From Rhodobacteraceae bacterium IMCC1335 (GTDB lineage Bacteria; Pseudomonadota; Alphaproteobacteria; Rhodobacterales; Rhodobacteraceae), in NCBI GenBank assembly GCA_039640495.1, contig CP046864.1, positions 1,550,001 to 1,614,000 on the forward strand: DNA of 64,000 bases. Direction: 5' to 3'. The translations under genes were made by a program, and so were the position numbers. The notes under the pieces were generated by a model, which worked only from the letters and a program-made list of their open reading frames with translations, made no database searches and was not told where the DNA came from. Shown here one piece after another: positions 39,673 through 57,885 of this stretch. The first letter of the stretch is position 1. Every line of letters starts with the position of its first letter.

Positions 39673-39739
39673 ATGCCCTCTGTGAACTATTTTAAAGCCT
39701 CTTTTGACGCTTTTGGCCCTATTCGGGTTGCGGCGATTA
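39673..39739 (+). pseudogene. 5' part of a small gene split by the composite transposon
   Basis: ATG at 39673 has a GAGGA site 6 bases upstream. The frame MPSVNYFKASFDAFG... is cut after AAI by the insertion at TA 39738-39739. Joined to 53699-53823 with the insert and one TA removed, it gives exactly 64 codons including the stop (63 residues). No family is recognised. Confidence 0.7.
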
Positions 39740-39751
39740 ATACCAACCGCC

Positions 39752-40297
39752 CTAATAATTGACCTTTATCCAATCTCTTTTGGTGATTGAAGTTATTCGT
39801 TCTGGATCGTTGGCGAAGAAGTTCCACGCTTGGGCACATTTTTCGAGGATTTCGTCGTAGGTGTCGAAGACCGAGATAGCGAGTTTGTTTGACCGCAGAT
39901 AGGCCCAGACGTTTTCCATGGGGTTCAGTTCTGGTGAGTATGGCGGCAGTTTCACGAGCGTAATATTGTCTGGTACTTGCAAGCATTTTGCCCCGTGCCA
40001 GCCAGCCCCGTCGACGATGAGCATGGCATGTGCCCCGTGCGCGACAGCTTTTGCGATCTCATTGAGGTGCGGCCCCATTGCCTCCGCGTTGACGTAAGGC
40101 AGGATCAGCCCTGCGGCGGTACCACGGGCGGGACAAGCGGCACCGAAGATTAGCCCCCACTTGTAACGCGTATCACGAGGTGCGCGGGGGCGGGTTCCGC
40201 GCCGCGCCCATTTGCGCGTAAGTGTTCCTTGTTGCCCAACACGGGCTTCATCTTGGAAGCATACCTCAAGGGGCTTACCCTTTGCATGTTCTGGCAT
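39752..40297 (-). CDS. IS630 transposase orfB (DDE catalytic domain), left copy
   Basis: The 181-residue C-terminal half of the transposase. DDE residues are the Asp in CFQDEARVG, the Asp in MLIVDGAGWHG, and the Glu in LPPYSPELNPMENVWAYL. The frame is open upstream of its ATG (KNFASLVVEL), so the natural product is probably an orfA-orfB fusion made by a -1 shift at the A7 run near the end of orfA. It cuts and joins DNA at the terminal repeats, targeting TA. Confidence 0.9.
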   Translation of the reverse strand: MPEHAKGKPLEVCFQDEARVGQQGTLTRKWARRGTRPRAPRDTRYKWGLIFGAACPARGTAAGLILPYVNAEAMGPHLNEIAKAVAHGAHAMLIVDGAGWHGAKCLQVPDNITLVKLPPYSPELNPMENVWAYLRSNKLAISVFDTYDEILEKCAQAWNFFANDPERITSITKRDWIKVNY

Positions 40298-40305
40298 GAG
40301 CTCGA

Positions 40306-40818
40306 CTACGAGGCTGGCAAAGTTTTTTTGAAAGCCTGCTGTGCTGCGGGATCAGTTTTGGGATACTCAGGTCGAACAGAGAGGCGACGAAATCCATGTT
40401 TGGCTAGATATTTACCAATCGTGCGTTCGTGCAACTTCACGCCGAACGCGTCTTCAACACGAGCCTGTAAATCGGCGCAGCGCCACCGTACTACGCCATC
40501 TTTTACAGGGTTAGGTCCAGCCTCAACCCAAGCCACAAACCGCGCCTGTTGTGTTGGCGACAGGCGTGGCTTCGCGCCCTTGCCACGTCGGTCAGAAAGC
40601 TCAGCAATGCCGCTGCAGTTGTAGCGATGCACCCAGTCTCGCAGAGTTTGGCGATCCATGCCGCTACTGCGAGCCGACGTCGCGCGATCAACGCCCTCTA
40701 GAACCACAGCTATTGCGAGTATGCGCCGAACAACACAACAATCTCTGGTTCGTTTGGCGATAAAACGCAACTCTCGCGCAGAAATATCCGTTCGCGTGAT
40801 GGCTATAGCTCGTCCCAT
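40306..40818 (-). CDS. IS630 transposase orfA (DNA-binding domain), left copy
   Basis: A 170-residue N-terminal half with helix-turn-helix regions (SSGMDRQTLRDWVHRYNCSGI and the later LHERTIGKYLAKHGF). It recognises the terminal repeats. It starts behind GGAGGAATAG. Near its end an A7 tract (TTCAAAAAAACT) provides slippage into orfB, the usual IS630 arrangement. Confidence 0.9.
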   Translation of the reverse strand: MGRAIAITRTDISARELRFIAKRTRDCCVVRRILAIAVVLEGVDRATSARSSGMDRQTLRDWVHRYNCSGIAELSDRRGKGAKPRLSPTQQARFVAWVEAGPNPVKDGVVRWRCADLQARVEDAFGVKLHERTIGKYLAKHGFRRLSVRPEYPKTDPAAQQAFKKTLPAS

Positions 40819-41026
40819 CTATTCCTCCATGATAAGTGCACACACAGATTCAGATTTCTGCGGAATTGGAAACCATAAAGTGAGTCAGCTTTTCGGGATA
40901 GTGGTATTAAATAGCCGACCTATCAAGGGGGGCACTTTTCCAAGCGCCCATGCGACATACATAAACGCCCACCATTTTTGCATTCAGAGCTCGGCAAGCG
41001 GTCCACAGCGAGTCGCAACTGAGACC

Positions 41027-41692
41027 TCACACGCCAAGCGCGGCCTTTTCTTCAGCATTGGTGCCAAATTGAGGCAGATCTGCGGTGGACTTGCCGTGTG
41101 CGGCCATCAACGTGTCACGCACAAAGGCGATATGGGCTGTCTCTTCGATAATTTCCGCCAAGTATTGCGCTTTCATCAAGGTTGCTCCGACACCGATTGT
41201 GCCGTGATTCGCCAAAACCGCTGCGACAATTTTAGGATCTTGGAAGACAGGGCTGATTTCCCTGTCGGTCTGCGGCCCCCCCATTGGTGACAAGGCGATC
41301 AGTGGCATGCGCCCAATCTTTTCAATCGTTTGCACGGTCAGACACGGGATCTCCAGTCCTGCGCTGGCATATCCTGTGGCCCAAGGGCTGTGGCAGTGTA
41401 CCACCGCGCGAATATCGTCACGGATACTATAAAGATCAAGGTGAAAACCCAGATCTTTGGATGGCTTGAAAGGGCTGTCTTCGATTGTGCCGTCCAGATG
41501 GACCACTTGCAGATTGTCCCGGGTGCATTCGTTAAACCCGATGCCTGAGGGCTTGATCACAATTGCATCGATGGCGTCGAGCCGGACCGATAGGTTGCCG
41601 CCGGCATTGGTTTGCAGCCGCAAGTCAAAGCACCGTTTGGCGGTTGCAATCAAGGCGTCTTTTTTATCAATTAAATCAGCGGGTATGCTCAT
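41027..41692 (-). CDS. Class II aldolase/adducin family protein (island, minus operon)
   Basis: A 221-residue class II (zinc) aldolase like L-fuculose-1-phosphate aldolase. NAGGNLSVR lines the phosphate site, KPSG follows, and zinc ligands are the His residues of VVHCHSPWA and the late His of ANHGTIGVG; the Glu after KPSKDLGFHLDLY is replaced in this motif by Asp. It would split or isomerise a sugar phosphate in the cytoplasm. Its ATG overlaps the stop of the Tm-1-like gene, and it is the last gene of the six-gene minus operon of the island. Confidence 0.85.
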   Translation of the reverse strand: MSIPADLIDKKDALIATAKRCFDLRLQTNAGGNLSVRLDAIDAIVIKPSGIGFNECTRDNLQVVHLDGTIEDSPFKPSKDLGFHLDLYSIRDDIRAVVHCHSPWATGYASAGLEIPCLTVQTIEKIGRMPLIALSPMGGPQTDREISPVFQDPKIVAAVLANHGTIGVGATLMKAQYLAEIIEETAHIAFVRDTLMAAHGKSTADLPQFGTNAEEKAALGV

Positions 41693-42834
41693 AGAATTTG
41701 GTCCAATGTCAGCGTTTCCAGTACAGTTATAATTTTGTCAGTGACGGCAGGTGCAGAGATGTGCTCAGGCACGATATTAAGCGCAATCTCGGCCTTCAGC
41801 TTGCTACGGGCCACATCCAGAAAGATCTGGCGCAGTTCAGGATCTTCGATTGCACCACCTGGACAATCTTGATGGGAAAAACCCCCCATCGGCACGATCA
41901 GTGCGCGAGGGCCGGTCGCGGTATTTAAGATATCTATTAATTTAGACGCAATCTGTGCCATTTCATCCGGGGTCAGTTTTACATGGGTGAAATAACCCGA
42001 ATGGGCATAGTGCGGCCGTTGCAGATAGTTTGATGGGACAAGAGCGGCTGCCCCCAATCCAAGAAAATTCAATCCGCCGGGCAGGACAATGCGCGGAAGT
42101 GCGCCTGCCGATGTAAACCTGTCTGCCATAGGCACGTGAGCGCCGGTGAGCTCTAGTCTGGTTAATTCATGCGGGGTGAGATCAATGATTGAATGAAAAG
42201 CGCCACGGGCGGCAAAGCGCGCAAAAGCTGCGCCACCATAGCCGTTTGAATGAAACACGGTCGCCTCTTGTTGGCGTTGGCCAAGCCGTTTGACCAATAG
42301 CCCGACTGCGGCTTCAGTTGCACCCATTGCCGTTATGCCAACCGAGGGCGCAGGTGGGCCCGCATCGTGTTTGTTGTTGCATAGGCCGGCGGTCATGGCG
42401 GCCGTGTTGTCCAAAACTTGGCGCAATGTGGCATTCAGCCCACAGATATCGGCCAGAGTTGGCACTAAAATGATGGAATTATCTGCTACGGCACCGCGTG
42501 GGTCAAACGGCAGGGTGGTCACAAGGAGCTTGGGAAAGGTAATAGGCAGGGCGCGCAGCACCTGCAAGATCACTTCGCCACCAGTTCCGCCTCCGATGCC
42601 AATCGTGACGTCTGTATCGTTCTCAACCGAGGCGGCGAGCTTATCCCAAACCCGTGCAACAGTTGCCTGCATTGCAGAGATTTTATCGCTCCCTCCAAGG
42701 GTTTTTCCGCCTGTCCGTAGCGAAACATCAATTGTGCGCACTGTTGTGCCGTGATCGGTAAGACGGCGGGTTAGATACGCCGCCTCGTCTGCTTTGGTCG
42801 CAAGCGTCGCTAATAGCAAAACGTTTCCGGTCAT
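41689..42834 (-). CDS. Tm-1-like ATP-binding / UPF0261 family protein
   Basis: A 381-residue protein of the UPF0261/Tm-1-like family. The N-terminal nucleotide-binding half has IGIGGGTGGEVILQVLRALPI and LPFDPRG near residues 77-115. The C-terminal half holds GITAMGATEAAVG, HSNGYGGAAFARFA, LTPHEL and MGGFSHQDCPGG. Some plant and bacterial relatives bind ATP; enzymatic function is poorly known, with hydrolase or isomerase roles proposed. It sits between the sugar ABC permease and a class II aldolase, so a role in the same sugar or sugar-acid route is likely. Confidence 0.83.
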   Translation of the reverse strand: MTGNVLLLATLATKADEAAYLTRRLTDHGTTVRTIDVSLRTGGKTLGGSDKISAMQATVARVWDKLAASVENDTDVTIGIGGGTGGEVILQVLRALPITFPKLLVTTLPFDPRGAVADNSIILVPTLADICGLNATLRQVLDNTAAMTAGLCNNKHDAGPPAPSVGITAMGATEAAVGLLVKRLGQRQQEATVFHSNGYGGAAFARFAARGAFHSIIDLTPHELTRLELTGAHVPMADRFTSAGALPRIVLPGGLNFLGLGAAALVPSNYLQRPHYAHSGYFTHVKLTPDEMAQIASKLIDILNTATGPRALIVPMGGFSHQDCPGGAIEDPELRQIFLDVARSKLKAEIALNIVPEHISAPAVTDKIITVLETLTLDQIL

Positions 42835-42838
42835 TTAT

Positions 42839-43768
42839 TTAGCCTTTTACTGCGCCAGCTGTCATGCCGGTAATGATTTGCCGGGATGCGAACAGCGTGA
42901 AGATAATTGGTGGAATCGCCAGCAGCATGCCGGTGGCCATGATGACCCCCCATTCAACGTTGAATTCTGACATGTTGTTCACGATTAAAATAGGCACGGT
43001 TTTTGTGTCTCGGTCCGACAGGGCCGAGGCCAAAAGATATTCGTTCCAAGCGATGCGGAACGTAAAAATTGCCGCAGCAGCAAGACCGGGTTTGATCAGG
43101 GGAAGAACAATTTGGAAAAAGACCTGAAACGGCCCCGCACCATCCACGCGCGCCGCCTCTTCCAAACTGCGCGGCACCTGCACGATAAAACTTTGCAAAA
43201 TCCAGATCACAAATGGCAGGTTCATCGCGACGTAAATTAAGATAATTCCAGAATGTGTACCGGCCAGACAAACATCACCGCGTCCCCCGAAGGTGTCGCG
43301 GATCAGTTCACCCAGCCAGAACTTTTTGCTAATGCAAAATTCGTTATTCCAAAGACCAAAAACGGGCACTAACAAAACAGCAGGTGGTACCATGCGGACC
43401 ATCAATGTCGTCAATGATGCTGTATCGCGCCCCATAAACCGGAACCGCACCAGCGCGTAAGCGGCCATACATCCGATGATTAAAGTCAGCGCCGTAGACA
43501 CCAGTGCGATGATTAAAGAATTGACAAAGGCCCCGCCAAATTTCAGTGCGCAGAAATCTAGGTGCTTGGGCTCGTACCATAAGACGTCGCACAGCGCGGT
43601 TTCATAATTCTGGATCGTCGGTAAAAATATCAGCCCCGAGGTGCCGCCAATGATGTCGACGTCAAGTTTAAACGAATTGGAGAACATCAAAACAATGGGT
43701 CCCACAGCCATGAAGATCAGGGCGACCAGCAAGGCATAAAAGGCGGGGTTCTGTCGGTCGTAATCCAT
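42839..43768 (-). CDS. Carbohydrate ABC transporter permease (MalG/UgpE family)
   Basis: A 309-residue inner-membrane permease with about six helices and the EAA loop RSLEEAARVDGAGPFQVFFQIVLPLIKPG near residue 210. It pairs with the preceding permease gene and the ATPase to import a sugar. An insertion near residues 145-175 (NNEFCISKKFWLGELIRDTFGGRGDVCL), with two Cys, is longer than usual in the periplasmic loop. The gene is 3 bases from the upstream permease gene. Confidence 0.9.
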   Translation of the reverse strand: MDYDRQNPAFYALLVALIFMAVGPIVLMFSNSFKLDVDIIGGTSGLIFLPTIQNYETALCDVLWYEPKHLDFCALKFGGAFVNSLIIALVSTALTLIIGCMAAYALVRFRFMGRDTASLTTLMVRMVPPAVLLVPVFGLWNNEFCISKKFWLGELIRDTFGGRGDVCLAGTHSGIILIYVAMNLPFVIWILQSFIVQVPRSLEEAARVDGAGPFQVFFQIVLPLIKPGLAAAAIFTFRIAWNEYLLASALSDRDTKTVPILIVNNMSEFNVEWGVIMATGMLLAIPPIIFTLFASRQIITGMTAGAVKG

Positions 43769-43771
43769 GGT

Positions 43772-44683
43772 TTAGTCTTCTTCCTGAATTTGGCGGGCTT
43801 GCCGCGCAGCGCGGGCCTCTTGCAAGCGGGTTATGACAAACATTCCCAAGGTTAGAATGAGCAAAAGGATCAGCAGATAGTTTGACATGGCCGCCGCCAC
43901 GCCCAATTCGCGAAATTCTGTTGCGGTTCGTGAAATGCGCAGGGCGATAATTTCTGTGGATAGGCCTGGGCCACCTTCGGTCATTACCAAGATTACCTCC
44001 AAGACTTTAAAGGCATCGATCAGACGCAAAAGCCCGGTCACAATCAGTACCGGCATCATCAGCGGCAACTTGATATATCTGATCTGCTGCCATCCGGTGG
44101 CCCCATCGATCTTGGCGGCTTCTAATGCGGAGCGGGGCAGTGATTGTAACGCCGCCAGCGACAGGATGAAAATAAATGGCGTCCATTGCCAGATATCGGC
44201 GATAATGACAGACAATAGCGCGTGCTGGCCAAGCCAATCTACGCCCTCAAGCCCCATTGATTTTAGGGTTCTGTTAATCGTGCCAACGGTTGGGTGGTAC
44301 ATATAGCGCCACATCAAGCCGACAACTACGGGGGCAATCATCATTGGTAAAATGAACAAGGTGCGCAGGACCGACATGCCGCGAATGTTGCGGTCCAGTA
44401 GCAAAGCTAAGCCAACACCAATTGCAAGTTCCGCTGTGACCACCGCAAAAGCAAACGTCAAGGTGACAGACAGGCTTTCCCGAAAGGCTGGATCAAAAAA
44501 TAGTGTAATATAGTTTTTCAGGCCTACAAATTCGGTTTCAGAAATATTCTGGCTGGGATCCCACGCTCGAAACGACCCATAAATCATATACGCAAGCGGG
44601 TAGAGTAACGCGAGACCCATGATAATAACCGCAGGGGCCATAAATACATAAGGTGTCATTCGGTTCAATTTTTGGGATTTCAC
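43772..44683 (-). CDS. Carbohydrate ABC transporter permease (MalF/UgpA family)
   Basis: A 303-residue permease with six helices. GTG at 44683 (VKSQKLNRMTPYVFM) is chosen because CGGAG precedes it and the 54-base upstream extension lies in a GC-rich hairpin. The EAA loop is LPRSALEAAKIDGATGWQQIRYIKLPLM. It forms the channel with the MalG-like partner. The hairpin before its start separates it from the binding-protein gene. Confidence 0.88.
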   Translation of the reverse strand: MKSQKLNRMTPYVFMAPAVIIMGLALLYPLAYMIYGSFRAWDPSQNISETEFVGLKNYITLFFDPAFRESLSVTLTFAFAVVTAELAIGVGLALLLDRNIRGMSVLRTLFILPMMIAPVVVGLMWRYMYHPTVGTINRTLKSMGLEGVDWLGQHALLSVIIADIWQWTPFIFILSLAALQSLPRSALEAAKIDGATGWQQIRYIKLPLMMPVLIVTGLLRLIDAFKVLEVILVMTEGGPGLSTEIIALRISRTATEFRELGVAAAMSNYLLILLLILTLGMFVITRLQEARAARQARQIQEED

Positions 44684-44707
44684 GTCATGCTCCGAATGTT
44701 GGGGATT

Positions 44708-44734
44708 GCGCGACCCGTGGGGACCGGGTCGCGC
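44708..44734 (-). promoter_or_regulatory. mRNA stem-loop between binding protein and permease genes
   Basis: A perfect 10-bp stem (GCGCGACCCG / CGGGTCGCGC) with a 7-base loop, directly after the binding-protein stop. It probably stabilises the upstream message and lowers permease synthesis. Confidence 0.7.
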
Positions 44735-44746
44735 CATAGATAGTAT

Positions 44747-46075
44747 TTACTGCCAGGTGTAATACCCGGCCTCTTCCATCACGCCTCTGGTGCGTTCCGC
44801 AACACCGTCCAAGGCAACCTTAACATCCAGACCTTCGGTCAGAACTTTTGACAGTGTTGTGCCTAGGTCTGCGTTGATTTTACCCCAAACTGGGATGATT
44901 GGGCGCCAGTCAGGGTCAGCGTGTTTAAGCGCTTCACCAAATGTTGCCATATGTGGAAACTTGGCGTTCACATCCGCATCTGCGTGGGTCGAGAACCGCG
45001 ACGGGTTTCCGCCGGCCAACGCAACCAGTTTGTCGCCGGTCTTTGAGGTCAGCCACTGCATCAACAAAAACGCGGCTTCTTTGTTTTCAGCGTTCTTTGG
45101 AATGCCGATGCCAAAACCGCCGGTTTGCGAACCGCGACGCACACCTTCGGGGTGCATAGCCCAACCAACCTTGCCGACAACTTTCGATTTACTTGCATCG
45201 TCGATTTGACCTGCCACAACAGTGGTGTCCAAAAACATTGCCGTGTCGCCGTTCAGGAATGAGCCAAGCGCTTCACCAAAACCAAACGAGGCTGCACCTT
45301 CGGGACCACAATCAATGATTTTTTTCAGCGCATTTGCGGCCTGAACACCAGCTTTATTGTTCACAATTGGGTTCCAAGCGTCGTCAAAGATACGTCCGCC
45401 CAGAGGTGCAAGATGCAACAAAAATGCGTGGGCTGCATGGTGCCCGGACGCCGCACGCGACGACAGACCGCCCATACCCGGCTCAAGCTGTGGGATCTTG
45501 CAGGCGATGTCCAGCATTTCTGCATAGGTCTCAGGAACGCTCAGCCCATGTTTTTCAAAGATGTCTTTGCGATAGCCAAGAACAGATGTTTCTGATCCGT
45601 AAGGCATTCCAAACAGCGATCCGGTTTTGCCTTGCAGATAGCCTTTGTTGCCACCGGCAAAGCCAATGTTGTAAACGTAGCCGTCAATTAAATCATCTGC
45701 ATCGTAAAATGGGTCAGCCAGTTTCGGGTTCATGAAATAACGCGCAAGATTTTCAAGCTGGTCTGCATAGACATAGTCTGCTTTGGAGAATACGACATAG
45801 GCGATCAGGTCATAGTCGCCTTCGTCTTGGCCCAGTTCTAAAGTCTGGCGTTCCCGCATTTTTAGATAGGGCAATTGGTCGACTTCGACTTCGATCCCAG
45901 TTTCTTTGGTGAACTCTGGCAAGATTTTCATCACCGCGTTATAATGAGGGTGCGCTGGGAAATTGACCACCAAAGTCGTGCCTTCATAGGCATCATACGG
46001 CCCAGCTATAGCTGCACTCGTCATAGTGAGTGCGGTTGAGGCCCCAAGGGCCATGCGTTTGAGTTTTGTTAACAT
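44747..46075 (-). CDS. Carbohydrate ABC transporter solute-binding protein
   Basis: A 442-residue periplasmic protein from ATG (MLTKLKRMALG) behind GGGAGGACAA. The signal peptide ends at AIA. The family 1 extracellular binding fold is shown by NAVMKILPEFTKETGIEVEVDQLPYLKM, YDLIAYVVFSKADYVYA, YGSETSVLGYRKDIFEKHGL and GGFGIGIPKNAENKEAAFLLMQWLTS. It captures a sugar, polyol or oligosaccharide. The exact ligand is unknown; kinase and aldolase genes nearby suggest a monosaccharide or sugar alcohol. Confidence 0.9.
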   Translation of the reverse strand: MLTKLKRMALGASTALTMTSAAIAGPYDAYEGTTLVVNFPAHPHYNAVMKILPEFTKETGIEVEVDQLPYLKMRERQTLELGQDEGDYDLIAYVVFSKADYVYADQLENLARYFMNPKLADPFYDADDLIDGYVYNIGFAGGNKGYLQGKTGSLFGMPYGSETSVLGYRKDIFEKHGLSVPETYAEMLDIACKIPQLEPGMGGLSSRAASGHHAAHAFLLHLAPLGGRIFDDAWNPIVNNKAGVQAANALKKIIDCGPEGAASFGFGEALGSFLNGDTAMFLDTTVVAGQIDDASKSKVVGKVGWAMHPEGVRRGSQTGGFGIGIPKNAENKEAAFLLMQWLTSKTGDKLVALAGGNPSRFSTHADADVNAKFPHMATFGEALKHADPDWRPIIPVWGKINADLGTTLSKVLTEGLDVKVALDGVAERTRGVMEEAGYYTWQ

Positions 46076-46107
46076 AGGTTGTCCTCCCATAATCATTAAA
46101 GGTGACG

Positions 46108-47193
46108 CTAGAGCGCCAGTTCTGTTTTTCGGTCAAATAGATGAATACCCTCTGGTCTGACCGCAAACCTGAGTGTTTCGCCAAGTGCGATGGGGGTTTC
46201 TGATTTTAGTTCCACCGTCACGTCAGCTCGTCCAGAAGCGCACAGCAAAACGGACTGTGCGCCAATGTATTCGGAAATTTTTACCTGCAAATCCAAAGCC
46301 GCAGCGTCTTGGGCTTTGGGATCATAAATCAGGTCACTGGGCCGCACGCCCAAGGTGACATGACCGCTTGTTTGGCCTAAACCGTTTGACTTGGAGGCAG
46401 GGATGGCAATTTTAAATGTATCGCCAATGGCAAAAAGTGTACCACCCTCTGCTTGTAGGTTAGCCTCTAGAAAATTCATGGGTGGCGATCCGAGAAACCC
46501 CGCAACAAATTTATTTTTGGGTTTTTTGAACAACGTCTCTGGCGTGCCTTGCTGCTGAATATAGCCGCCGTGCATCACGACAATCCGGTCGGCTAAAGTC
46601 ATTGCTTCGATTTGGTCATGGGTCACATAGATCATATTTTTTTTGACCCGCTGCCCCATCACTGCCAACTCGGCGCGCATTTGGCCGCGCAATTTAGCAT
46701 CGAGATTGGACAGGGGTTCGTCGAACAGGAAAATATCGCTGTCTTTGGCCAAGGCCCGCGCCATTGCGACGCGCTGGCGTTGGCCGCCCGATAGGGCACC
46801 GGGCTTGCGGTGTAAAAACTCTGTTAAACCTACGAGATCGGCGACTTGGCTTACCTTGGCTTCTATTTCGGCCTTGGGGCGTTTTTGCAGGCGTAATGCA
46901 AACGAGATGTTTTGCGCCACATCCATGTGTGGGTAGAGCGCGTAATCTTGGAATACCATCGCCAAATTGCGGTCCTTTGGTTCTAAATGGCTAACGGGTT
47001 GATCATTGAAGAAGATTTCCCCCTCAGAGACCGTTTCCAACCCAGCAATCATCCGCAGGGTCGTAGATTTTCCACAGCCAGAAGGCCCTACTAGAGCAGT
47101 GAATTCATTTTCGGCCATGCTGAGATCAATACCGTGCAACACCTGCACTGCGCCGTAGCGCTTGATAAGATTCTCCAAGCGAATTTCAGGCAT
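46108..47193 (-). CDS. Carbohydrate ABC transporter ATPase (MalK/UgpC family)
   Basis: A 361-residue ATPase. Walker A is GPSGCGKST, signature LSGGQRQRVAMARA, Walker B IFLFDEPLSNLDA, and the switch His is in YVTHDQ. The C-terminal TOBE/OB-fold regulatory domain begins near residue 240 (GSPPMNFLEA, GVRPSDL, FAVRPEGIHLFD). It powers the sugar permease pair encoded downstream. It is the first gene of the island's minus operon; a GntR-type palindrome lies 29 bases before its start. Confidence 0.93.
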   Translation of the reverse strand: MPEIRLENLIKRYGAVQVLHGIDLSMAENEFTALVGPSGCGKSTTLRMIAGLETVSEGEIFFNDQPVSHLEPKDRNLAMVFQDYALYPHMDVAQNISFALRLQKRPKAEIEAKVSQVADLVGLTEFLHRKPGALSGGQRQRVAMARALAKDSDIFLFDEPLSNLDAKLRGQMRAELAVMGQRVKKNMIYVTHDQIEAMTLADRIVVMHGGYIQQQGTPETLFKKPKNKFVAGFLGSPPMNFLEANLQAEGGTLFAIGDTFKIAIPASKSNGLGQTSGHVTLGVRPSDLIYDPKAQDAAALDLQVKISEYIGAQSVLLCASGRADVTVELKSETPIALGETLRFAVRPEGIHLFDRKTELAL

Positions 47194-47221
47194 AGAATCT
47201 CTCCTCGGTTGGACCTAATAA

Positions 47222-47235
47222 TTTTGTATACAAAA
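47222..47235. promoter_or_regulatory. GntR-type operator, copy 1
   Basis: Perfect 14-bp palindrome TTTTGTATACAAAA in the malK-gntR divergent region, 29 bases upstream of the ATPase gene start. An identical site occurs at 48052-48065. GntR/FadR-family operators commonly have a TGTATACA-like core. Confidence 0.82.
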
Positions 47236-47317
47236 AAGAAAGTAAATATACTAAATTGCTAAATTGAAAAAAAACTGTATTATTGGTCTAGAGTAGAGGC
47301 AAAACGCAGGGTCTGAA

Positions 47318-47983
47318 ATGGCAAATATACAAGCAACAGACGCCGGTAAGCATAAAATGTCGGCAGCACATCGTGTTGAACATGCTTTGATTGAAGAAAT
47401 CAGTGCTGGTGAACTTTTGCCCGGTGTTCGCCTAGATGAAGTTGGGTTGGCACATCGGTTTGGTGTGTCGCGCACCCCAGTACGCGAGGCACTATCTCGA
47501 TTAACCGCGCAAGGCATATTGGTTCCGGGTGAAAAGCGCGGCGCTTTTGTCGCGGAATATTCGCGTGAGCAATTAAGCCAAATTTTTGAAGCCATGCACG
47601 AAATAGAAGCCGCTTGCGCCCGAATAGCTGCACAACGCCTTAGTTTACTGGCCAGATCTGAAATTGAAACAGCTCAAGGCGATTGCATGAAAGCGGCCGA
47701 AGCAGGCGATCGCGTTGCGTATTTGCGTGCCAATGAAGCTTTCCATTTGACAATCTATAAGGCGACTGGAAACCCCTATATCGCTGAGATTGCATCTGAA
47801 TTTCGCCGCCGTACTGGGCCGTTTCGCGCTAAAAAATTCCAAACCCCCGAAGACCTGATCGGTTCAGCGCAAAGTCACCAGACTTTGATTGATGACATTT
47901 TCTCCGAAGATTCAAATACGGCGTCAAAAGGTATGCGGGATCATATGACAAACAGTTTTATGCAAACGTTACGGGTCAATTGA
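47318..47983 (+). CDS. GntR-family regulator (FadR/FCD subfamily)
   Basis: A 221-residue repressor-type protein. The N-terminal winged helix spans about 15-80 (LLPGVRLDEVGLAHRFGVSRTPVREALSRL). The FCD effector domain follows, with metal-binding His and Asp candidates (EAFHLTIYKATGN, SHQTLIDDI, MRDHMTNSF). It lies between the two island operons and is divergent from the ABC operon. Identical palindromes before both operons make it the likely regulator of the whole island, responding to a sugar acid or phosphorylated intermediate. Its last codons lie in a tandem repeat. Confidence 0.9.
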   Translation: MANIQATDAGKHKMSAAHRVEHALIEEISAGELLPGVRLDEVGLAHRFGVSRTPVREALSRLTAQGILVPGEKRGAFVAEYSREQLSQIFEAMHEIEAACARIAAQRLSLLARSEIETAQGDCMKAAEAGDRVAYLRANEAFHLTIYKATGNPYIAEIASEFRRRTGPFRAKKFQTPEDLIGSAQSHQTLIDDIFSEDSNTASKGMRDHMTNSFMQTLRVN

Positions 47984-48013
47984 CATAAAAACGTTACGGT
48001 TCATTGACATAAA
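47964..48013. repeat. Tandem 24-bp direct repeat spanning the gntR stop codon
   Basis: Two near-identical units, AAACGTTACGGGTCAATTGAC (from 47964) and AAACGTTACGGTTCATTGAC (from 47988), each continuing into ATAAA. The first unit encodes the last GntR residues and the stop. Each contains TTGACA, a -35-like hexamer. Confidence 0.8.
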
Positions 48014-48051
48014 GTTGGGTTACCCTCTTGCAATAGTGCCCATTCTTCTAT

Positions 48052-48065
48052 TTTTGTATACAAAA
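48052..48065. promoter_or_regulatory. GntR-type operator, copy 2
   Basis: The same 14-bp palindrome TTTTGTATACAAAA as at 47222-47235, here 27 bases before the MBL hydrolase gene start. Its position would block or control transcription of the plus-strand catabolic operon. Confidence 0.82.
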
Positions 48066-48091
48066 TAGATTCGCTGAATACGGAGGTCCGG

Positions 48092-49027
48092 ATGGGCATT
48101 GCAGAAACCAAGATTTACCCGATCAACACTGGCTGGTTAGAAGCTGACCTTGGGAGCTATATCTTTTGGAAGGGCCCTGCGGGAAAAAAGTATTGGAACC
48201 CTGTTTATTGCCATTATGTAGATACAGGTGAGCATAAAATCTTGATTGATACGGGGCTGTGTGATGCGGAACGGGCCACTCAATATCATCACAAATGCGA
48301 CAAGCGTGGCTGTTTGGAGGTGCATGACCACTTAGAGCAAAAACTCGGTGTGCATCCCGATGAGATTGATGCAATTGTATTTACCCATCTGCACTGGGAT
48401 CATGTCCAAAATATGAAAAAATTCAAAAATGCCCGCTATATTGCCCCTAAGGGTGAGATCGAAATGGCTTATAATCCTTTACCTTTATATTATCGCACCT
48501 ACGAATGCGGTATTCTGGATATTAAGCCGGCGTATGCTGGCTGTGTGTTTGAAGCGATTGGAGACGAATGCGAGGTTCTGCCTGGTATTACTATGTTCCA
48601 CACCCCGGGTCATTCTGTTGGTCACATGGGCGTGACAGTGGCCACCTCTGCAGGAGATATTGTGGTTGCGGGCGATGCAATTTTCGTAGAGCGGAACCTA
48701 GAGCCCAATCCTGCCGAAAAATGGCGTCACTGGGTGCCTGCAAGGTTTGTAAACTCTTATGAAGGCTGGAAATCTGTTGAAGAAATCGACAAGCGCGCGG
48801 ATTATGTTCTGCCGTGTCATGACGAGGTTGCAAATGCGCGCTCAGATGTGTTTCCTTACGACGGAATGCCGATTCGCAAACGCCGCCAACCCATTCCGGG
48901 GTACCAGTTTTATTTTGGTGATATGCCTATCGGCACAGCAGGGAAAGCAGCTCCTGCCTTAACCAAGGCGGAGGCCGATCAATATATCGCCGGTTTGAAA
49001 AATCCGAAAGATATGGCGGAATACTAA
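48092..49027 (+). CDS. MBL-fold metallo-hydrolase (lactonase-like)
   Basis: A 311-residue metallo-beta-lactamase-fold hydrolase. Di-metal ligands are HLHWDH near residue 99, the His in MFHTPGHSVGH, the Asp in VVAGDAIF and the last His in LPCHDEVA. It resembles AiiA-type lactonases. In a sugar-catabolic operon, opening of a sugar lactone is more likely than quorum quenching, but this is inference. GGAGG precedes the ATG. First gene of the four-gene plus operon, with 4 bases to the next. Confidence 0.85.
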   Translation: MGIAETKIYPINTGWLEADLGSYIFWKGPAGKKYWNPVYCHYVDTGEHKILIDTGLCDAERATQYHHKCDKRGCLEVHDHLEQKLGVHPDEIDAIVFTHLHWDHVQNMKKFKNARYIAPKGEIEMAYNPLPLYYRTYECGILDIKPAYAGCVFEAIGDECEVLPGITMFHTPGHSVGHMGVTVATSAGDIVVAGDAIFVERNLEPNPAEKWRHWVPARFVNSYEGWKSVEEIDKRADYVLPCHDEVANARSDVFPYDGMPIRKRRQPIPGYQFYFGDMPIGTAGKAAPALTKAEADQYIAGLKNPKDMAEY

Positions 49028-49031
49028 ACTT

Positions 49032-49865
49032 GTGACCCAGCGTATCAACACTTTAGCAGACGTGGCACAAGATTATGACGCCATCGTATTTGATCAATGG
49101 GGCGTGTTGCATAACGGCACAGCGCCGTATTCGCGTGCGATAGAGTGCCTTACCGGTCTAGCCAATGCAGGTTTGCCACTGGCGGTTTTATCCAATTCTG
49201 GAAAACGCGCCGGTCCGAACGCGCTACGGATCGCGGACATGGGCTTTGCGCCATCGCTGTTTAGTCAAATCATGACCAGCGGCGAAGCTTTATGGCGTGA
49301 CATTCATACAGGGAAGCTGCCCCACAGGCGGTTTTTCTGCATTGAGCGGTCCGCTGGTGATGCTTGTGCTTGGGCCGAGGGGTTGCCTGTTGAGTTCACT
49401 GATCTGGAAAATGCAGACGCTGTCTTGTTGATGGGCCTGCCAGATAAAGCCAGATTAGCCGATTGGGGTACCCCATTGGCGGCGGCACTGGACGCGGACC
49501 TGCCAATCTACTGTTCAAATCCCGACCGTCAATCACCCCGCGCAGAGGGTTTGGTGATCTCACCAGGTGCATTGGCGTATGCTTATGTCGATATGGGGGG
49601 GCATGTTTCGTTCTATGGCAAACCGCACCCTGGCATTTTTGATGCGCTGGCATCGTCCCTTGGGGTGGCACGTATTTTGATGGTGGGGGACAGTTTGGAG
49701 CATGATATCGCGGGTGCGCAATCTGCGGGCTGGGATAATGTTTTGGTACAAGGCGGACTTTATGCCAATGATTTTGCACAGGCGGATCATGATTCTGTTT
49801 TGGCAAATCTAGTGGCCGCAAAGGCCTGCCGACCCCCGACGTATTCAATAGAGGTACTTGCATGA
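49032..49865 (+). CDS. HAD-superfamily class IIA hydrolase (TIGR01459-like)
   Basis: A 277-residue HAD protein starting with GTG. Motif I is FDQWGVLHNG, motif II VLSNSGKR, and the late motifs are YGKPHPGIFDAL and MVGDSLEHDIAGA. The second acid of motif I is replaced by Trp, as in the TIGR01459 group. Candidate roles are removal of phosphate from a sugar phosphate or repair of a side product. It overlaps the next gene (ATGA), consistent with one operon. Confidence 0.87.
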   Translation: MTQRINTLADVAQDYDAIVFDQWGVLHNGTAPYSRAIECLTGLANAGLPLAVLSNSGKRAGPNALRIADMGFAPSLFSQIMTSGEALWRDIHTGKLPHRRFFCIERSAGDACAWAEGLPVEFTDLENADAVLLMGLPDKARLADWGTPLAAALDADLPIYCSNPDRQSPRAEGLVISPGALAYAYVDMGGHVSFYGKPHPGIFDALASSLGVARILMVGDSLEHDIAGAQSAGWDNVLVQGGLYANDFAQADHDSVLANLVAAKACRPPTYSIEVLA

Positions 49866-50830
49866 AAAACCGACCAGAATTGTTGACCCTAGACTTCCGC
49901 GCGCTGTCTGCCCGTTTGGGCACTGACCCTTTGCAAGTCCAAGGGCCGGGCGGCAATACGTCGATTAAAGACGGTGATGTGATGTGGATCAAGGCGTCGG
50001 GCACGGAATTGGCCAACGCGGAAACCCAAGATATTTTTGTTGCGGTCGACCGCAATGCAGCTAAGGCAGAAGCGCACGGTCAGGGTGATGGGTCGTGCAA
50101 ACAAACTGTGCTGGATCCTGCGATCACGCTGCGGCCGTCGATTGAAACAACATTTCATGCAGCGCTGAACCATAAGGTTGTGGCCCATACGCATTCTGTT
50201 GCGGCGCTGGTGCATGTCGCGGGTCCCGAAGGCCGCGCGCAGGCCGTGCAAAAACTGGCAGATTTGCCTTTTGTAATGGTGCCCTACGCCAAGCCAGGTC
50301 TGCCGCTGACCCGTGAAATTCTATCCCGTGTGACGCCCGACACCAAAGTTGTTCTATTGCAAAATCATGGATTGATCTGCTGTGGCGATACCGTGGATGA
50401 CGTATCAAACCTGATCCATGACGTTGAAACGAGATTGGCAATGGCGGTTAGTGGCCGGCAGACCAAGCCACCAAAAGAACGGGCACCTGAGGGGTTCGAG
50501 TGGGCGCATGAGAGCTGGGTTGCCCACGATGCTTGGGCCATGGCACATGCCACGGCTGGATCCTATTACCCCGATCACGTGGTGTTTCTGGGGCCAGCGC
50601 TGCCAGTCCAAGATGACGGGCGCTGGCCGGCTGTTTTGTATGACGGTGTCGGCATTGCCTTGCGTGTAGCGGCCACGCCCAGTCAACGTGCGATGCTGCG
50701 TTGCCTGTCGGATATATTGGCCCGATTACCCTCTGATTGGAGCTTAGATCCAATCGGTCTAGAGGCTGAGGCAGAGTTGCTGAATTGGGACGCTGAAAAA
50801 TATCGCCAAACTCTGGCTGCTCGCGCATGA
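49862..50830 (+). CDS. Class II aldolase/adducin family protein (island, plus operon)
   Basis: A 322-residue protein with a zinc aldolase domain. Signatures are QGPGGNTSIKDGDVMWIKASGTEL, PSIETTFHAAL (catalytic Glu), the zinc His pair in VAHTHSVAAL and LLQNHGLICCG. It resembles the aldolase part of RhaD-like rhamnulose-phosphate aldolase/dehydrogenase fusions, without the dehydrogenase half. It probably cleaves the phosphate made by the downstream FGGY kinase. It overlaps both neighbours by 4 bases. Confidence 0.85.
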   Translation: MKNRPELLTLDFRALSARLGTDPLQVQGPGGNTSIKDGDVMWIKASGTELANAETQDIFVAVDRNAAKAEAHGQGDGSCKQTVLDPAITLRPSIETTFHAALNHKVVAHTHSVAALVHVAGPEGRAQAVQKLADLPFVMVPYAKPGLPLTREILSRVTPDTKVVLLQNHGLICCGDTVDDVSNLIHDVETRLAMAVSGRQTKPPKERAPEGFEWAHESWVAHDAWAMAHATAGSYYPDHVVFLGPALPVQDDGRWPAVLYDGVGIALRVAATPSQRAMLRCLSDILARLPSDWSLDPIGLEAEAELLNWDAEKYRQTLAARA

Positions 50831-52095
50831 GCCTCAGCTTGGGGATAGATGTGGGTACATCGGGCGTACGCACTGCGGTTTTGACTGCCCAAGGTGATGT
50901 TTTGCCCATGGCGCGCACGGATCATGTGGCGCAAAACAAAGATTATATTGATGCGGATGGGTGGTGGCGTGCTGTCCAAACGTGCATTTTGCGGCAGATA
51001 GAGATTTTATGGGCTGAAGGGTTCTCACCGCTTGATATCACCGGGATTGCCGTCGATGGCACTTCTGGCACTATGGTTCTTACCGACATAAATTTGCGGC
51101 CCGTGACCCGCGCGATGATGTATAACTCAAGTGGGTTCGATACCGAGGCAGCGATGATCGCCCGCTTTGCGCCTGATTTGCATATCACGCGTGGGTCTGC
51201 TTCTGCGCTGGCCCGCGCCATGCGTCTGGCCGCAGAGGATGTCGATCACGCCGCCTGCCACCTGTTGCATCAGGCGGATTTTATTGCGGCAAAGCTGATG
51301 GGGCAGGGCGGGCTCTCTGATCATAACAACGCGCTTAAAACCGGGTTTGACCCTGAAACAGAAATGTGGCCAGACTGGATTGAGGCGTGCAAGCTCAATC
51401 CCTCCTTGCTGCCAGAGGTCAGGCCAGTTGGTGCACAATTGGCAGCAATCAACCCACAAGTGGCCACAGAATTGGGATTGTCGCGCAGTGTAACCATTCA
51501 TGCCGGTACCACCGACAGCATTGCCGCTTTTCTGGCTTGCGCCCCCCTGCAAGAAGGCGCAGCCGTAACGTCGTTGGGCACCACCTTGGCGGTGAAGTTG
51601 CTCAGTCCCAACCGAATAGATGATCCTGAGATTGGGCTTTATTCCCATCGCTTGGGCACTGTATGGCTGGTAGGCGGAGCGTCTAACACCGGCGGGGGTG
51701 TTTTACTTGATCACTTTTCAACAGACCAAATTTCAACCATCTGCAAGCGGATTGACCCCACCAAGCCAACGGGCTTGGGTTTTTATCCCCTTTCTAAGCC
51801 GGGCGAACGCTTTCCCATTAAAGATCCAGATTTTGTAGGTCGCCTGTCACCGAGGCCAAAAGATGACGTGATATTTTTACAAGCTATGCTGGAGGGAATA
51901 GCGGCGGTCGAAGCGCGGTGCTACCGTGAAATCGAAGTCAGAGGCGGTGGGGCACCACACCAGTTGTTTACTGCAGGTGGTGGCGCTCAAAACGCAGTTT
52001 GGACAGCCTTGCGAGAAATAGAGTTGGGGATGGATATTACCGCCGCTACGCGGTCAGAGGCTGCCATTGGATGTGCAAAATTGGCGCAGATTTAG
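50827..52095 (+). CDS. FGGY-family carbohydrate kinase
   Basis: A 422-residue kinase. The N-terminal phosphate motif is LGIDVGTSGVRTAV. The catalytic Asp is in GIAVDGTSGTMVL or the DHNNALKTGFD segment, and adenosine-site signatures are HAGTTDSIAAF and TSLGTTLAVK. The usual FGGY C-terminal motif is represented by FTAGGGAQNAVWTALR. It phosphorylates a ketose or sugar alcohol with ATP. Somewhat shorter than xylulokinase (about 480). Last gene of the plus operon; its product would feed the class II aldolase. Confidence 0.88.
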   Translation: MSLSLGIDVGTSGVRTAVLTAQGDVLPMARTDHVAQNKDYIDADGWWRAVQTCILRQIEILWAEGFSPLDITGIAVDGTSGTMVLTDINLRPVTRAMMYNSSGFDTEAAMIARFAPDLHITRGSASALARAMRLAAEDVDHAACHLLHQADFIAAKLMGQGGLSDHNNALKTGFDPETEMWPDWIEACKLNPSLLPEVRPVGAQLAAINPQVATELGLSRSVTIHAGTTDSIAAFLACAPLQEGAAVTSLGTTLAVKLLSPNRIDDPEIGLYSHRLGTVWLVGGASNTGGGVLLDHFSTDQISTICKRIDPTKPTGLGFYPLSKPGERFPIKDPDFVGRLSPRPKDDVIFLQAMLEGIAAVEARCYREIEVRGGGAPHQLFTAGGGAQNAVWTALREIELGMDITAATRSEAAIGCAKLAQI

Positions 52096-52528
52096 GCTAA
52101 AAAGTACTGTTGTAGAAGAGCTTTAGACGGAGTTGTTGCAAAAACTGTTGCTAAATGGCGCTAGTGACAGTTTGCCAGGGATCGCAAGACAGGCTGAAAA
52201 GAGCCGTGGTCAAATGTTATCAGCAAGCACCAGGGTGCGATTATGGTCGCTTTTCACTTTTACCTTTTTGATGCCCATTTCGTAACCAACATGTTCTTGC
52301 TGCTCCGGACAGTTTTGCGGTTTGGAAAAGATGGTGAGGTATCCTGTTGGTTTGGCGTGATAATCCTCGTATATAGTTATTTTCGAAGGCTCATGATGCT
52401 CATTCATCGCGCATTTTGCGAATACATCTGCTGATGGCGATTTTAGAGCAGGACATATTTATTATTGATCCTTCGCACCAGACGCTAAGGTCAAATGCTA
52501 AAACCGTCCGTTCAAAATTGCAGAGCTC
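52096..52528. other. Gap at the right inner end of the island
   Basis: A minus frame at 52210-52407 (65 residues, MNEHHEPSKITIYEDYH...) is hydrophilic and protein-like but has no ribosome site; a real gene is possible but not supported. The sequence meets the right IS copy at GAGCTC without a TA. Confidence 0.35.
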
Positions 52529-52617
52529 ATACCACTATCCCGAAAAGCTGACTCACTTTATGGTTTCCAATTCCGCAGAAATCTGAATCTGTGTGTGCAC
52601 TTATTATGGAGGAATAG

Positions 52618-53130
52618 ATGGGACGAGCTATAGCCATCACGCGAACGGATATTTCTGCGCGAGAGTTGCGTTTTATCGCCAAACGAACCAGAGATTGTTG
52701 TGTTGTTCGGCGCATACTCGCAATAGCTGTGGTTCTAGAGGGCGTTGATCGCGCGACGTCGGCTCGCAGTAGCGGCATGGATCGCCAAACTCTGCGAGAC
52801 TGGGTGCATCGCTACAACTGCAGCGGCATTGCTGAGCTTTCTGACCGACGTGGCAAGGGCGCGAAGCCACGCCTGTCGCCAACACAACAGGCGCGGTTTG
52901 TGGCTTGGGTTGAGGCTGGACCTAACCCTGTAAAAGATGGCGTAGTACGGTGGCGCTGCGCCGATTTACAGGCTCGTGTTGAAGACGCGTTCGGCGTGAA
53001 GTTGCACGAACGCACGATTGGTAAATATCTAGCCAAACATGGATTTCGTCGCCTCTCTGTTCGACCTGAGTATCCCAAAACTGATCCCGCAGCACAGCAG
53101 GCTTTCAAAAAAACTTTGCCAGCCTCGTAG
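52618..53130 (+). CDS. IS630 transposase orfA, right copy
   Basis: 170 residues, identical to the left-copy orfA: helix-turn-helix DNA-binding half starting GRAIAITRTDISARE, with GGAGGAATAG before the ATG. The A7 tract near the end (TTCAAAAAAACT) allows a shift into orfB. Confidence 0.9.
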   Translation: MGRAIAITRTDISARELRFIAKRTRDCCVVRRILAIAVVLEGVDRATSARSSGMDRQTLRDWVHRYNCSGIAELSDRRGKGAKPRLSPTQQARFVAWVEAGPNPVKDGVVRWRCADLQARVEDAFGVKLHERTIGKYLAKHGFRRLSVRPEYPKTDPAAQQAFKKTLPAS

Positions 53131-53138
53131 TCGAGCTC

Positions 53139-53684
53139 ATGCCAGAACATGCAAAGGGTAAGCCCCTTGAGGTATGCTTCCAAGATGAAGCCCGTGTTGG
53201 GCAACAAGGAACACTTACGCGCAAATGGGCGCGGCGCGGAACCCGCCCCCGCGCACCTCGTGATACGCGTTACAAGTGGGGGCTAATCTTCGGTGCCGCT
53301 TGTCCCGCCCGTGGTACCGCCGCAGGGCTGATCCTGCCTTACGTCAACGCGGAGGCAATGGGGCCGCACCTCAATGAGATCGCAAAAGCTGTCGCGCACG
53401 GGGCACATGCCATGCTCATCGTCGACGGGGCTGGCTGGCACGGGGCAAAATGCTTGCAAGTACCAGACAATATTACGCTCGTGAAACTGCCGCCATACTC
53501 ACCAGAACTGAACCCCATGGAAAACGTCTGGGCCTATCTGCGGTCAAACAAACTCGCTATCTCGGTCTTCGACACCTACGACGAAATCCTCGAAAAATGT
53601 GCCCAAGCGTGGAACTTCTTCGCCAACGATCCAGAACGAATAACTTCAATCACCAAAAGAGATTGGATAAAGGTCAATTATTAG
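53139..53684 (+). CDS. IS630 transposase orfB, right copy
   Basis: 181 residues, identical to the left-copy orfB, with the full DDE set (CFQDEARVG, IVDGAGWHG, ELNPMENVW). Both copies look intact, so the element is potentially active. Confidence 0.9.
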   Translation: MPEHAKGKPLEVCFQDEARVGQQGTLTRKWARRGTRPRAPRDTRYKWGLIFGAACPARGTAAGLILPYVNAEAMGPHLNEIAKAVAHGAHAMLIVDGAGWHGAKCLQVPDNITLVKLPPYSPELNPMENVWAYLRSNKLAISVFDTYDEILEKCAQAWNFFANDPERITSITKRDWIKVNY

Positions 53685-53696
53685 GGCGGTTGGTAT

Positions 53697-53823
53697 TAAT
53701 CCGTCAAAGCAATTTGAGCAATCCGCAGATGTAGCCGCTGGGCAGGCGATGGTACAGCGCGCGGTTTATTCAAAATCGCGTAAGGATTTCAGGCGCGATT
53801 TTGGCGACATGGTGGAAGTTTAA
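53697..53823 (+). pseudogene. 3' part of the small gene split by the composite transposon
   Basis: From the TA duplicate the frame reads NPSKQFEQSADVAAGQAM... and ends DFGDMVEV at TAA 53821. It has no start of its own. It is the missing end of the frame that opens at 39673. The composition is soluble and charged; the function is unknown. Confidence 0.7.
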
Positions 53824-53850: not shown

Positions 53851-54612
53851 TTATTTCGCGGTATAGCCGCCATCGACCATCAGAACCTGCCCCGTCACAT
53901 AGGCAGAGGCCTGTGAGCATAGAAACAAAAGGGGGCCGTCTATGTCTGACAAATCTCCATTACGGCCGATGCAGGTTTGGGCGGCATTGCGGGCAGCGCG
54001 CTCGGCATCCGCAAAAACCGGCCCTGTAAGCTCGGTTGGGAAGAACCCGGGCCCAATCGCATTGGCGTTAATCCCAAAGCCCGACCAAGCCTCTGCCATC
54101 GCGCGTGTCAATTGTGCGATGCCGGCTTTCGAGGCGCCGTAGCTGACCCCGCCGGGAAACGCGCGCGTGGTTTGAAGCGATGCGAAATTTACGATCCGGC
54201 CCCAGCCTTTGGCTTTCATATCCGGCACAAGCGCCTGACTTAGGAAAAACGGCGCAGCAAGATTGAGGTTAAGCGTTATGTCCCAGCCTTCATCGGTTAC
54301 GTTATCAGCGGCTTCGCGGGTGTTTATTCCGGCTGCATGAACCAGAATATCGGGCGTGCCGAATGGGGTGGCGATTTGAGCGGCGATCTCTTTTATCTGG
54401 CTGCGCTGAGACAGGTCGGCAGACAGGGTGGCGGCTTTTGGCCCGATACGCTCGGCCCATTCCGAAAGCGCTTCTGCGCGCCGCGCCACGCCAACAACCT
54501 GCGCGCCAGCAGCAGCCAAAGCCGAGGCTGCCTGTTGTCCGAGGCCAGAACTGGCCCCGGTGACGCAGGCAACGCGCCCCGACAGATCAAAAAGTGTTTT
54601 TGGATCAGCCAT
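53851..54612 (-). CDS. Short-chain dehydrogenase/reductase (possible DHPS or gluconate-type dehydrogenase)
   Basis: A 253-residue classical SDR. The NAD(P) site is TGASSGLGQ; HAAGIN follows, and the catalytic Ser-Tyr-Lys are in NFASLQ and SYGASKAG. The ending VTGQVLMVDGGYTAK is standard. It resembles gluconate 5-dehydrogenase-type enzymes. It overlaps hpsN by 8 bases, so it is co-translated with it. In known DHPS clusters short-chain enzymes (HpsO, HpsP) interconvert DHPS stereoisomers through a keto intermediate; this gene is a good candidate for that role, by context only. Confidence 0.85.
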   Translation of the reverse strand: MADPKTLFDLSGRVACVTGASSGLGQQAASALAAAGAQVVGVARRAEALSEWAERIGPKAATLSADLSQRSQIKEIAAQIATPFGTPDILVHAAGINTREAADNVTDEGWDITLNLNLAAPFFLSQALVPDMKAKGWGRIVNFASLQTTRAFPGGVSYGASKAGIAQLTRAMAEAWSGFGINANAIGPGFFPTELTGPVFADAERAARNAAQTCIGRNGDLSDIDGPLLFLCSQASAYVTGQVLMVDGGYTAK

Positions 54613-55912: not shown

Positions 55913-55924
55913 AGTTATTTTGCC

Positions 55925-57253: not shown

Positions 57254-57264
57254 CGCCGTATTCC

Positions 57265-57777
57265 TCAGTCAAACAGCTTGTCGCCTTCGTAAACGGGCGA
57301 CCCGTCGCGAAGGCTGCGCAGATCGCGCAGGAGCGATTGCGTCAATCGCACGATTACCAGAAAAAACCCAATTGGCACGGCCATCAGGAACCAAACCATC
57401 GACACCCGAAGGCCATGGCTTACCGAGCCAAATTTCCACGAGACATGGACGGTTTCCCATGACCAGTATAACGCGATCAAAGCGACCGCAAACATGACCA
57501 GATCACCAAAGATGTAGAGCAGGGTTTTCACCGAAGGGCTCAAATAATGCATCACCACATCAATTCTGATATGCGCGCGGTCTTTCACGGCCGCGGCCGC
57601 ACCGATCCAGGCAAGATAGATAAAAGAATATCGCACAATTTCTTCGCCCCAAATGGATGAATAGGCAAAGATCTCGCGGCGAAACACTTCAACGGCCATG
57701 GTCATAACGAGCATGACGTAAAAGGCCAAAAGTGCCCATTTCTCGGCGTCTTTATTGAGCCTTTGAAGTAACAACAT
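57265..57777 (-). CDS. TRAP transporter small permease (DctQ family; HpsL-like)
   Basis: A 170-residue four-helix protein. The ATG at 57777 (MLLLQRLNK) has a GGGAGG site; the in-frame ATG 36 bases upstream lacks one. The DctQ signature SSIWGEEIVRYSFIYLAWIGAAAAVKD is present. It links the Tat-exported binding protein to the channel. Confidence 0.88.
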   Translation of the reverse strand: MLLLQRLNKDAEKWALLAFYVMLVMTMAVEVFRREIFAYSSIWGEEIVRYSFIYLAWIGAAAAVKDRAHIRIDVVMHYLSPSVKTLLYIFGDLVMFAVALIALYWSWETVHVSWKFGSVSHGLRVSMVWFLMAVPIGFFLVIVRLTQSLLRDLRSLRDGSPVYEGDKLFD

Positions 57778-57885
57778 AACAAACCTCCCTCGTAGCGTCG
57801 CTTTGGCCAGCAAGGCGCGTTGAAAAATGCAAAATTATTTTGAGAGTAAAAATGGTGGGCGTTTTTGCACGCCCACCAAAAACAT

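Follow-up and report, generated by a model that had tools for sequence, protein, structure and literature searches.

IS630-family composite transposons and a bracketed gene cluster

Insertion sequences (IS) of the IS630 family have been linked to composite transposons before, and one account, taken here from an excerpt, holds that IS630 elements are usually found in such units (PMC9977792). A 1991 title by Tenzen and Ohtsubo, "Preferential transposition of an IS630-associated composite transposon to TA in the 5'-CTAG-3' sequence", is cited in PMC2170065, and Tardiphaga strain vice278 is described, in the passage available, as having a putative natural IS630 composite transposon around its xanthorhodopsin operon (PMC7701988). 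Accounts of single elements include those of ISHsp2 from Halomonas sp. ZM3, a family member with two open reading frames (ORFs) that duplicates TTAA (PMC3606827), and of ISY100 from Synechocystis, in which 5 of 39 in vitro insertions were aberrant (PMC2170065). The excerpt on Paracoccus yeei reports many IS copies and no composite transposon (PMC6209633), and in the available part of PMC7471000 IS630 is named in the methods only. The locus considered here belongs to Rhodobacteraceae bacterium IMCC1335 (assembly GCA_039640495.1, contig CP046864.1) and lies in a window, the whole stretch of DNA that was analysed, of 64,000 nucleotides (nt; contig positions 1,550,001 to 1,614,000). In it, a near-identical, inverted pair of IS630-family elements brackets a cluster of genes that have no part in transposition. 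Composite transposition of the whole unit is the best explanation of this arrangement, and we give it a probability of about 0.88.

Geometry of the unit

Both IS copies are 1,168 bp long, are in opposite orientation, and differ from each other at a single position (40831/52605). They are the only two matches of the element in its own genome, a single contig of 3,735,584 bp. The whole unit measures 13,957 bp and its interior 11,621 bp, so that the inverted IS630 pair around an 11.6-kb catabolic island, described from the letters alone in the original prediction, is confirmed. Because both transposases read outward, the same end of the element, the one downstream of the transposase, is outermost on both sides. 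Each outer end adjoins a TA, the flanks reading GATTA/ATACC on the left and GGTAT/TAATC on the right (slashes mark junctions), again as had been predicted. Since TA is found at 3.7% of positions in the window around the unit, its presence at both outer ends is unlikely to be due to chance.

The element has the features expected of the IS630 family, namely, a helix-turn-helix plus DDE transposase, a TA duplication at the outer ends of the unit and at the left inner end (the right inner end is without it), and short terminal inverted repeats. The two end types are otherwise different, being alike at 18 of 40 positions with a longest common run of 6, the terminal ATACCA. Both transposase halves match NF033545 (cut-off 100), the second with a score of 130.6 and the first, below the cut-off, with 92.9. 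A -1 slip at CAAAAAAAC would join them into a fusion transposase of 355 amino acids, in which D190, D270, and E302 are present. Nine relative loci were compared for the frameshift site, and in all four whose alignment covers it (L058 of G610, L059 of G615, L046 of G067, and L047 of G324) the CAAAAAAAC string is kept. Because of this retention, the element looks like a normal two-ORF member of the family and not like a broken copy.

The empty target site

An 800-nt query made by joining the two outer flanks is found as a single stretch, 86-88% identical, in all three other congeners, G001, G002, and G003 (query positions 186-800, 73-800, and 11-800, respectively). The three alignments pass through the insertion point with no insert there. 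G001 is classed as the same species, yet its DNA at the site is only 82-88% identical to that of the window's genome. The target is a TTAA within the palindrome GATTAATC, and the neighbouring genes encode a LysR-type regulator and a short-chain dehydrogenase.

The empty site bears directly on the view that two IS copies landed independently around a cluster already resident at the locus, their insertion being unrelated to its arrival. The TA on both sides of the left copy would suit such a landing. However, the cluster-free site is continuous in all three congeners and is bounded exactly by the outer IS ends, and at E 1e-20 or better these genomes match the cargo only in the HAD gene (all three) and in part of the ABC (ATP-binding cassette) ATPase gene (G001 and G003), at 67-69% identity. 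Independent landing is therefore barely credible, and a site that was empty before the unit was inserted as a whole is the preferred reading.

The original prediction also had the unit interrupt a small gene that could be restored on paper. The flanks, joined minus one TA, do read through in a single frame of 63 residues and a stop, with GAGGA ahead of the ATG. However, the same ATG opens just 28, 28, and 14 codons in G002, G003, and G001, and a search of 384 family genomes for the 63-residue ORF matched the window's genome and G001 only, with none outside the genus. As the ORF is open in none of the three relatives and is not found outside the genus, insertion into a gene is rejected; the related genomes thus provide the expected empty site but not the intact ORF. 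The target is most likely intergenic DNA between the LysR-type regulator and short-chain dehydrogenase genes. Beside the insertion, positions 53851-59040 hold genes for a short-chain dehydrogenase, a histidinol-dehydrogenase-like protein, and a TRAP-type transporter, a set that we take to resemble clusters for the use of sulfonate (2,3-dihydroxypropane-1-sulfonate, DHPS).

Origin of the cargo

Matches to the cargo at E 1e-50 or better were found in 41 of 394 family genomes, the window's own included, with one or two places scored per genome in this and the other genome-sample searches below. The closest is in Rhodobacteraceae bacterium UBA1957 (G326), a metagenome-assembled genome (MAG) of another genus, which has the complete cargo at 98% identity over 11.6 kb. 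The contig continues past both edges of the UBA1957 cluster, and no IS is found at either edge. The cluster is present at 87% identity in G396 (84% complete, 6% contamination), the only other genome examined of that genus. The island was thus found at other loci and within other flanks. On the left side of the cluster, UBA1957 and G396 are collinear for 0.6 kb at 76% and then for 18.8 kb at 86%; the G396 sequence stops shortly past the right cluster edge, and collinearity was thus compared on the left flank alone. The left-flank genes, as we name them from their translations, presumably include cmk-, aroA-, trmB-, metK-, and phoH-like genes. Because the two genomes share a collinear flank, the cluster is most likely native to and vertically inherited in UBA1957's genus. 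As a side observation, UBA1957 has TAAATAGCC at the left cluster edge (L055 107-115) and its reverse complement GGCTATTTA about 60 bp past the right edge (11763-11771).

Four pieces of the UBA1957 flank, carrying conserved genes, are found in the window's genome at 67-71% identity. The contrast with the 98% identity of the cargo argues that the cluster moved horizontally, from a source close to UBA1957. When G396 is used as outgroup, 113 cargo differences are assigned to the branch of the window and 45 to that of UBA1957; of the coding changes on the window's branch, 67 are silent and 35 alter an amino acid (ratio 0.166). Some of the changes on this branch may be older than the transfer. All 11 cargo ORFs align to UBA1957 without stops or gaps, with an overall ratio of nonsynonymous to synonymous change (dN/dS) of 0.134. 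In G396, two cluster genes, one for a permease and the other for the solute-binding protein, have one in-frame stop each.

A vehicle for the passage between cells would be needed, and plasmid records were searched accordingly. Among 72,556 of them, a search for near matches to the cargo gave three, each covering 1% of it and lying inside the ABC ATPase gene. Relatives of the IS are present in 31 plasmid records, with 65-78% identity in the 20 listed, and in none was a single place counted as covering 80% or more of the IS.

Since the donor reference is a MAG, and since inverted repeats can flip an interior during assembly, a repeat-mediated misjoin or contamination, in the window's genome or in UBA1957, has to be weighed. 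The window's genome is, however, one contig of 3.74 Mb, an assembly flip could not create the cluster, and the UBA1957 contig is collinear with its congener over the long flank described above. We consider an artefact highly improbable, and take the cluster to be a genuine arrival from outside the genus.

The unit as the probable product of one event

The left inner junction reads GGTAT/TA/AATAGCC in the window and CACTG-TA-AATAGCC in UBA1957. Because UBA1957 has the same TA with no IS there, the left copy is indicated to have entered a native TA. A duplicated TTAA, a reading that yields the same outer flanks as TA, is disfavoured by the GTAAAT of UBA1957 at this junction. TA is therefore the better reading, although the donor itself may have differed from UBA1957 there.

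Any lone IS insertion puts one upstream and one downstream end on the target, and here both ends are downstream. Since both flanks touch a downstream end and are contiguous in three relatives, a single transposition is indicated, and the earlier proposal that the unit moved in one event is supported by the empty site, the native locus in another genus whose edges bear no IS, and the same-type ends. In a donor close to UBA1957, an IS630-family element would have entered the TA just left of the native cluster, and another copy, inverted, would have come to lie right of the cluster. The transposase would have paired the two outward, same-type ends, so that the 13,957-bp unit moved as one piece, probably by cut and paste, and entered the intergenic TA of the GATTAATC palindrome in the window's lineage, with duplication of that TA. 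The right inner TA would have been lost through a small deletion or an imprecise end event.

The same arrangement could in principle be reached in steps: a lone IS would insert, a circle consisting of the cluster and an IS copy would integrate by homologous recombination, and one IS would later flip in place, either because its two ends recombined with each other or because it was excised and reinserted locally. The flip is needed because a circle that recombines with an IS already in place leaves the two copies as direct repeats, with mixed ends. In-place inversion of an IS by end-to-end recombination has been reported for ISWpi1 of Wolbachia, whose ends, according to the excerpt available, are 23 bp long with a mismatch at position 17 (PMC3004938). 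In the present element the exact run is 6 bp and 18 of 40 positions agree, and the ends are thus too dissimilar for such a flip to be likely. The stepwise route also needs three events where one would do, and the IS is matched in none of the three congeners. It is improbable, and transposition of the unit as one piece remains the explanation that we favour.

Several observations weigh against a single composite transposition. The right inner junction has no TA, as had been noted in the original prediction; it reads GAGCTC/ATACC in the window and GAGCTC-AAACG in UBA1957, where the nearest TA is 54 bp further out. Because of this, two clean TA insertions would not by themselves have produced the unit, and the junction was altered by an adjacent deletion, by a 2-bp loss after entry at AA, or by imprecise use of the end. 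In two of the three relatives, one extra A lies beside the insertion point. Neither a second copy of the unit nor a donor with the IS pair was found in the 394 family and 390 order-level genomes, in which some copies may have been missed given the one or two places scored in each. The closest relative of the IS among the family genomes is in G227, at 96%, in two fragments at contig ends. The IS query matched none of G001, G002, G003, G326, and G396 (the positive control found both copies in their own genome). An empty answer shows little by itself, however, and with G326 being a MAG and several relatives assembled in many contigs, from which IS copies are easily lost, genome-wide absence is weak evidence. 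The absence of the IS from UBA1957 is firm only at both cluster edges, where the contig reads through.

The IS is matched at E 1e-20 or better in 6 of the 394 family genomes and at 1e-60 or better in 3 of the 390 genomes of the order-level sample, its own included in both counts. The other five family genomes with an IS match share no member with the 40 other genomes that match the cargo at 1e-50. Protein searches with a transposase half and with the kinase gave relatives without their genomic context, among the best 120 of about 8,000 matches each, and are not used as support.

Genes of the cluster and features of the locus

The 11 genes of the interior, all intact, encode two class II aldolase-family proteins, a UPF0261 protein, a four-gene sugar-type ABC transporter, a regulator, hydrolases, and a kinase (Table 1). 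In an NCBIfam scan of eight cargo proteins, the HAD protein alone exceeds a cut-off. The cluster is predicted from these gene families to serve the uptake and use of a sugar-like compound.

The GntR gene is flanked on both sides by the palindrome TTTTGTATACAAAA, and these are the only two places in the window with its core TTTGTATACAAA. UBA1957 has the two copies as well, the available G396 sequence has one, and the clusters of G329 and G186, which are more distant, have none. The palindrome is a likely operator of the GntR regulator. A run of 24 bp (47979-48002) that covers the end of the GntR gene and the bases directly after it is present in the window copy and absent from the UBA1957 alignment. 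Over positions 49030-49793, the HAD-IIA gene resembles a paralogue at another chromosomal site (G000:C1:2877089-2877852) with 67% identity, and the three congeners match the same stretch at 67-69%.

Table 1. Positions in the window of the IS copies, their target, and the cargo genes. Gene assignments are predictions from family matches.
Feature	Position	Strand	Basis or remark
Left half of on-paper 63-residue ORF	39673-39739	+	not conserved as ORF
Left TA of target duplication	39738-39739		sequence
Left IS630-family copy	39740-40907	-	transposase reads outward, leftward; outer end is transposase-downstream end
Transposase ORF B, DDE_3 domain (left copy)	39752-40297	-	predicted -1 frameshift at CAAAAAAAC joins ORF A
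Transposase ORF A, helix-turn-helix (left copy)	40306-40818	-	Pfam HTH_33/HTH_32; NF033545 first half, below cut-off
Inner TA of left copy	40908-40909		also in UBA1957, with no IS at this place
Cargo, 11,621 bp	40908-52528		98% identical to UBA1957 (L055 107-11702)
Class II aldolase/adducin family protein	41027-41692	-	PF00596
UPF0261 family protein	41689-42834	-	PF06792/PF23189
ABC transporter permease	42839-43768	-	PF00528
ABC transporter permease	43772-44737	-	PF00528
Extracellular solute-binding protein	44747-46096	-	PF01547
ABC transporter ATPase, MalK type	46108-47193	-	PF00005, PF17912
Palindrome TTTTGTATACAAAA, candidate operator	47219-47239
GntR/FCD regulator	47318-47983	+	PF00392, PF07729
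Second copy of palindrome TTTTGTATACAAAA, candidate operator	48049-48069
Metallo-beta-lactamase-fold hydrolase, lactonase-like	48092-49027	+	PF00753; 4-pyridoxolactonase match below cut-off
HAD-IIA hydrolase	49032-49865	+	TIGR01459, above cut-off
Second class II aldolase family protein	49862-50830	+	PF00596
FGGY carbohydrate kinase	50827-52095	+	PF00370, PF02782
Right IS630-family copy, inverted	52529-53696	+	transposase reads outward, rightward
Right TA of target duplication	53697-53698		sequence
Right half of on-paper 63-residue ORF	53699-53823	+	not conserved as ORF

Comparison with known systems

The locus agrees with the general picture of a composite transposon in that an IS pair brackets genes unrelated to transposition, a TA duplication at the outer ends goes with an uninterrupted empty site, and the cargo is present elsewhere in other flanks (UBA1957 and G396). 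It would show a complete metabolic cluster before and after its move between Rhodobacteraceae genera, with native locus, entry point, vehicle, and empty target all readable. On the boldest reading, suggested tentatively below, a transposase of the IS630/Tc1-type family would need one end type only and could move a unit 12 times as long as the element itself. Such same-end pairing is made directly testable by this unit.

Judged by its title, the composite of Tenzen and Ohtsubo (1991) is likewise an IS630-family composite transposon that targets TA, but in the sequence CTAG. The window unit lies instead in TTAA within GATTAATC, and combines an 11.6-kb native cluster with a known empty site and a donor-genus locus. 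The 1991 unit is said to have been a laboratory construct. The Tardiphaga vice278 unit is similar in having two identical IS630 copies, proposed to be inverted repeats, around functional genes; however, its copies are 45.7 kb apart, and the passage that describes it mentions neither an empty site nor a donor locus (PMC7701988). ISHsp2, as excerpted, shares with the present element the family and a transposase split into two ORFs that are joined by frameshifting, but it duplicates TTAA (PMC3606827), whereas the left inner junction of UBA1957 has TA without a preceding T. ISY100 is alike in TA duplication and is moved by cut and paste, and its aberrant insertions are a precedent for the odd right inner junction, although the available account concerns the single element and mini-ISY100 (PMC2170065).

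It had been claimed that IS630/Tc1-type composites with metabolic cargo are not usually described. This was overstated, as the available portions of three papers have IS630 composites already in print (PMC2170065, PMC7701988, PMC9977792). In the open-licence IS630 literature, within the portions available, no IS630-family composite was found that brings together catabolic cargo, an empty site, and a donor locus. We suggest, tentatively and with rather less than even confidence, that this is the first natural IS630/Tc1-type composite with cargo for which the locus in the donor genus, the native TA of entry, and the empty target can all be seen and which was moved by same-end pairing. For a family whose natural composites are thinly documented in the literature found, as excerpted, the unit gives a clear case with metabolic cargo. 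The IS630 composite is a known kind, and the window unit is a clear, well-documented further case of it.

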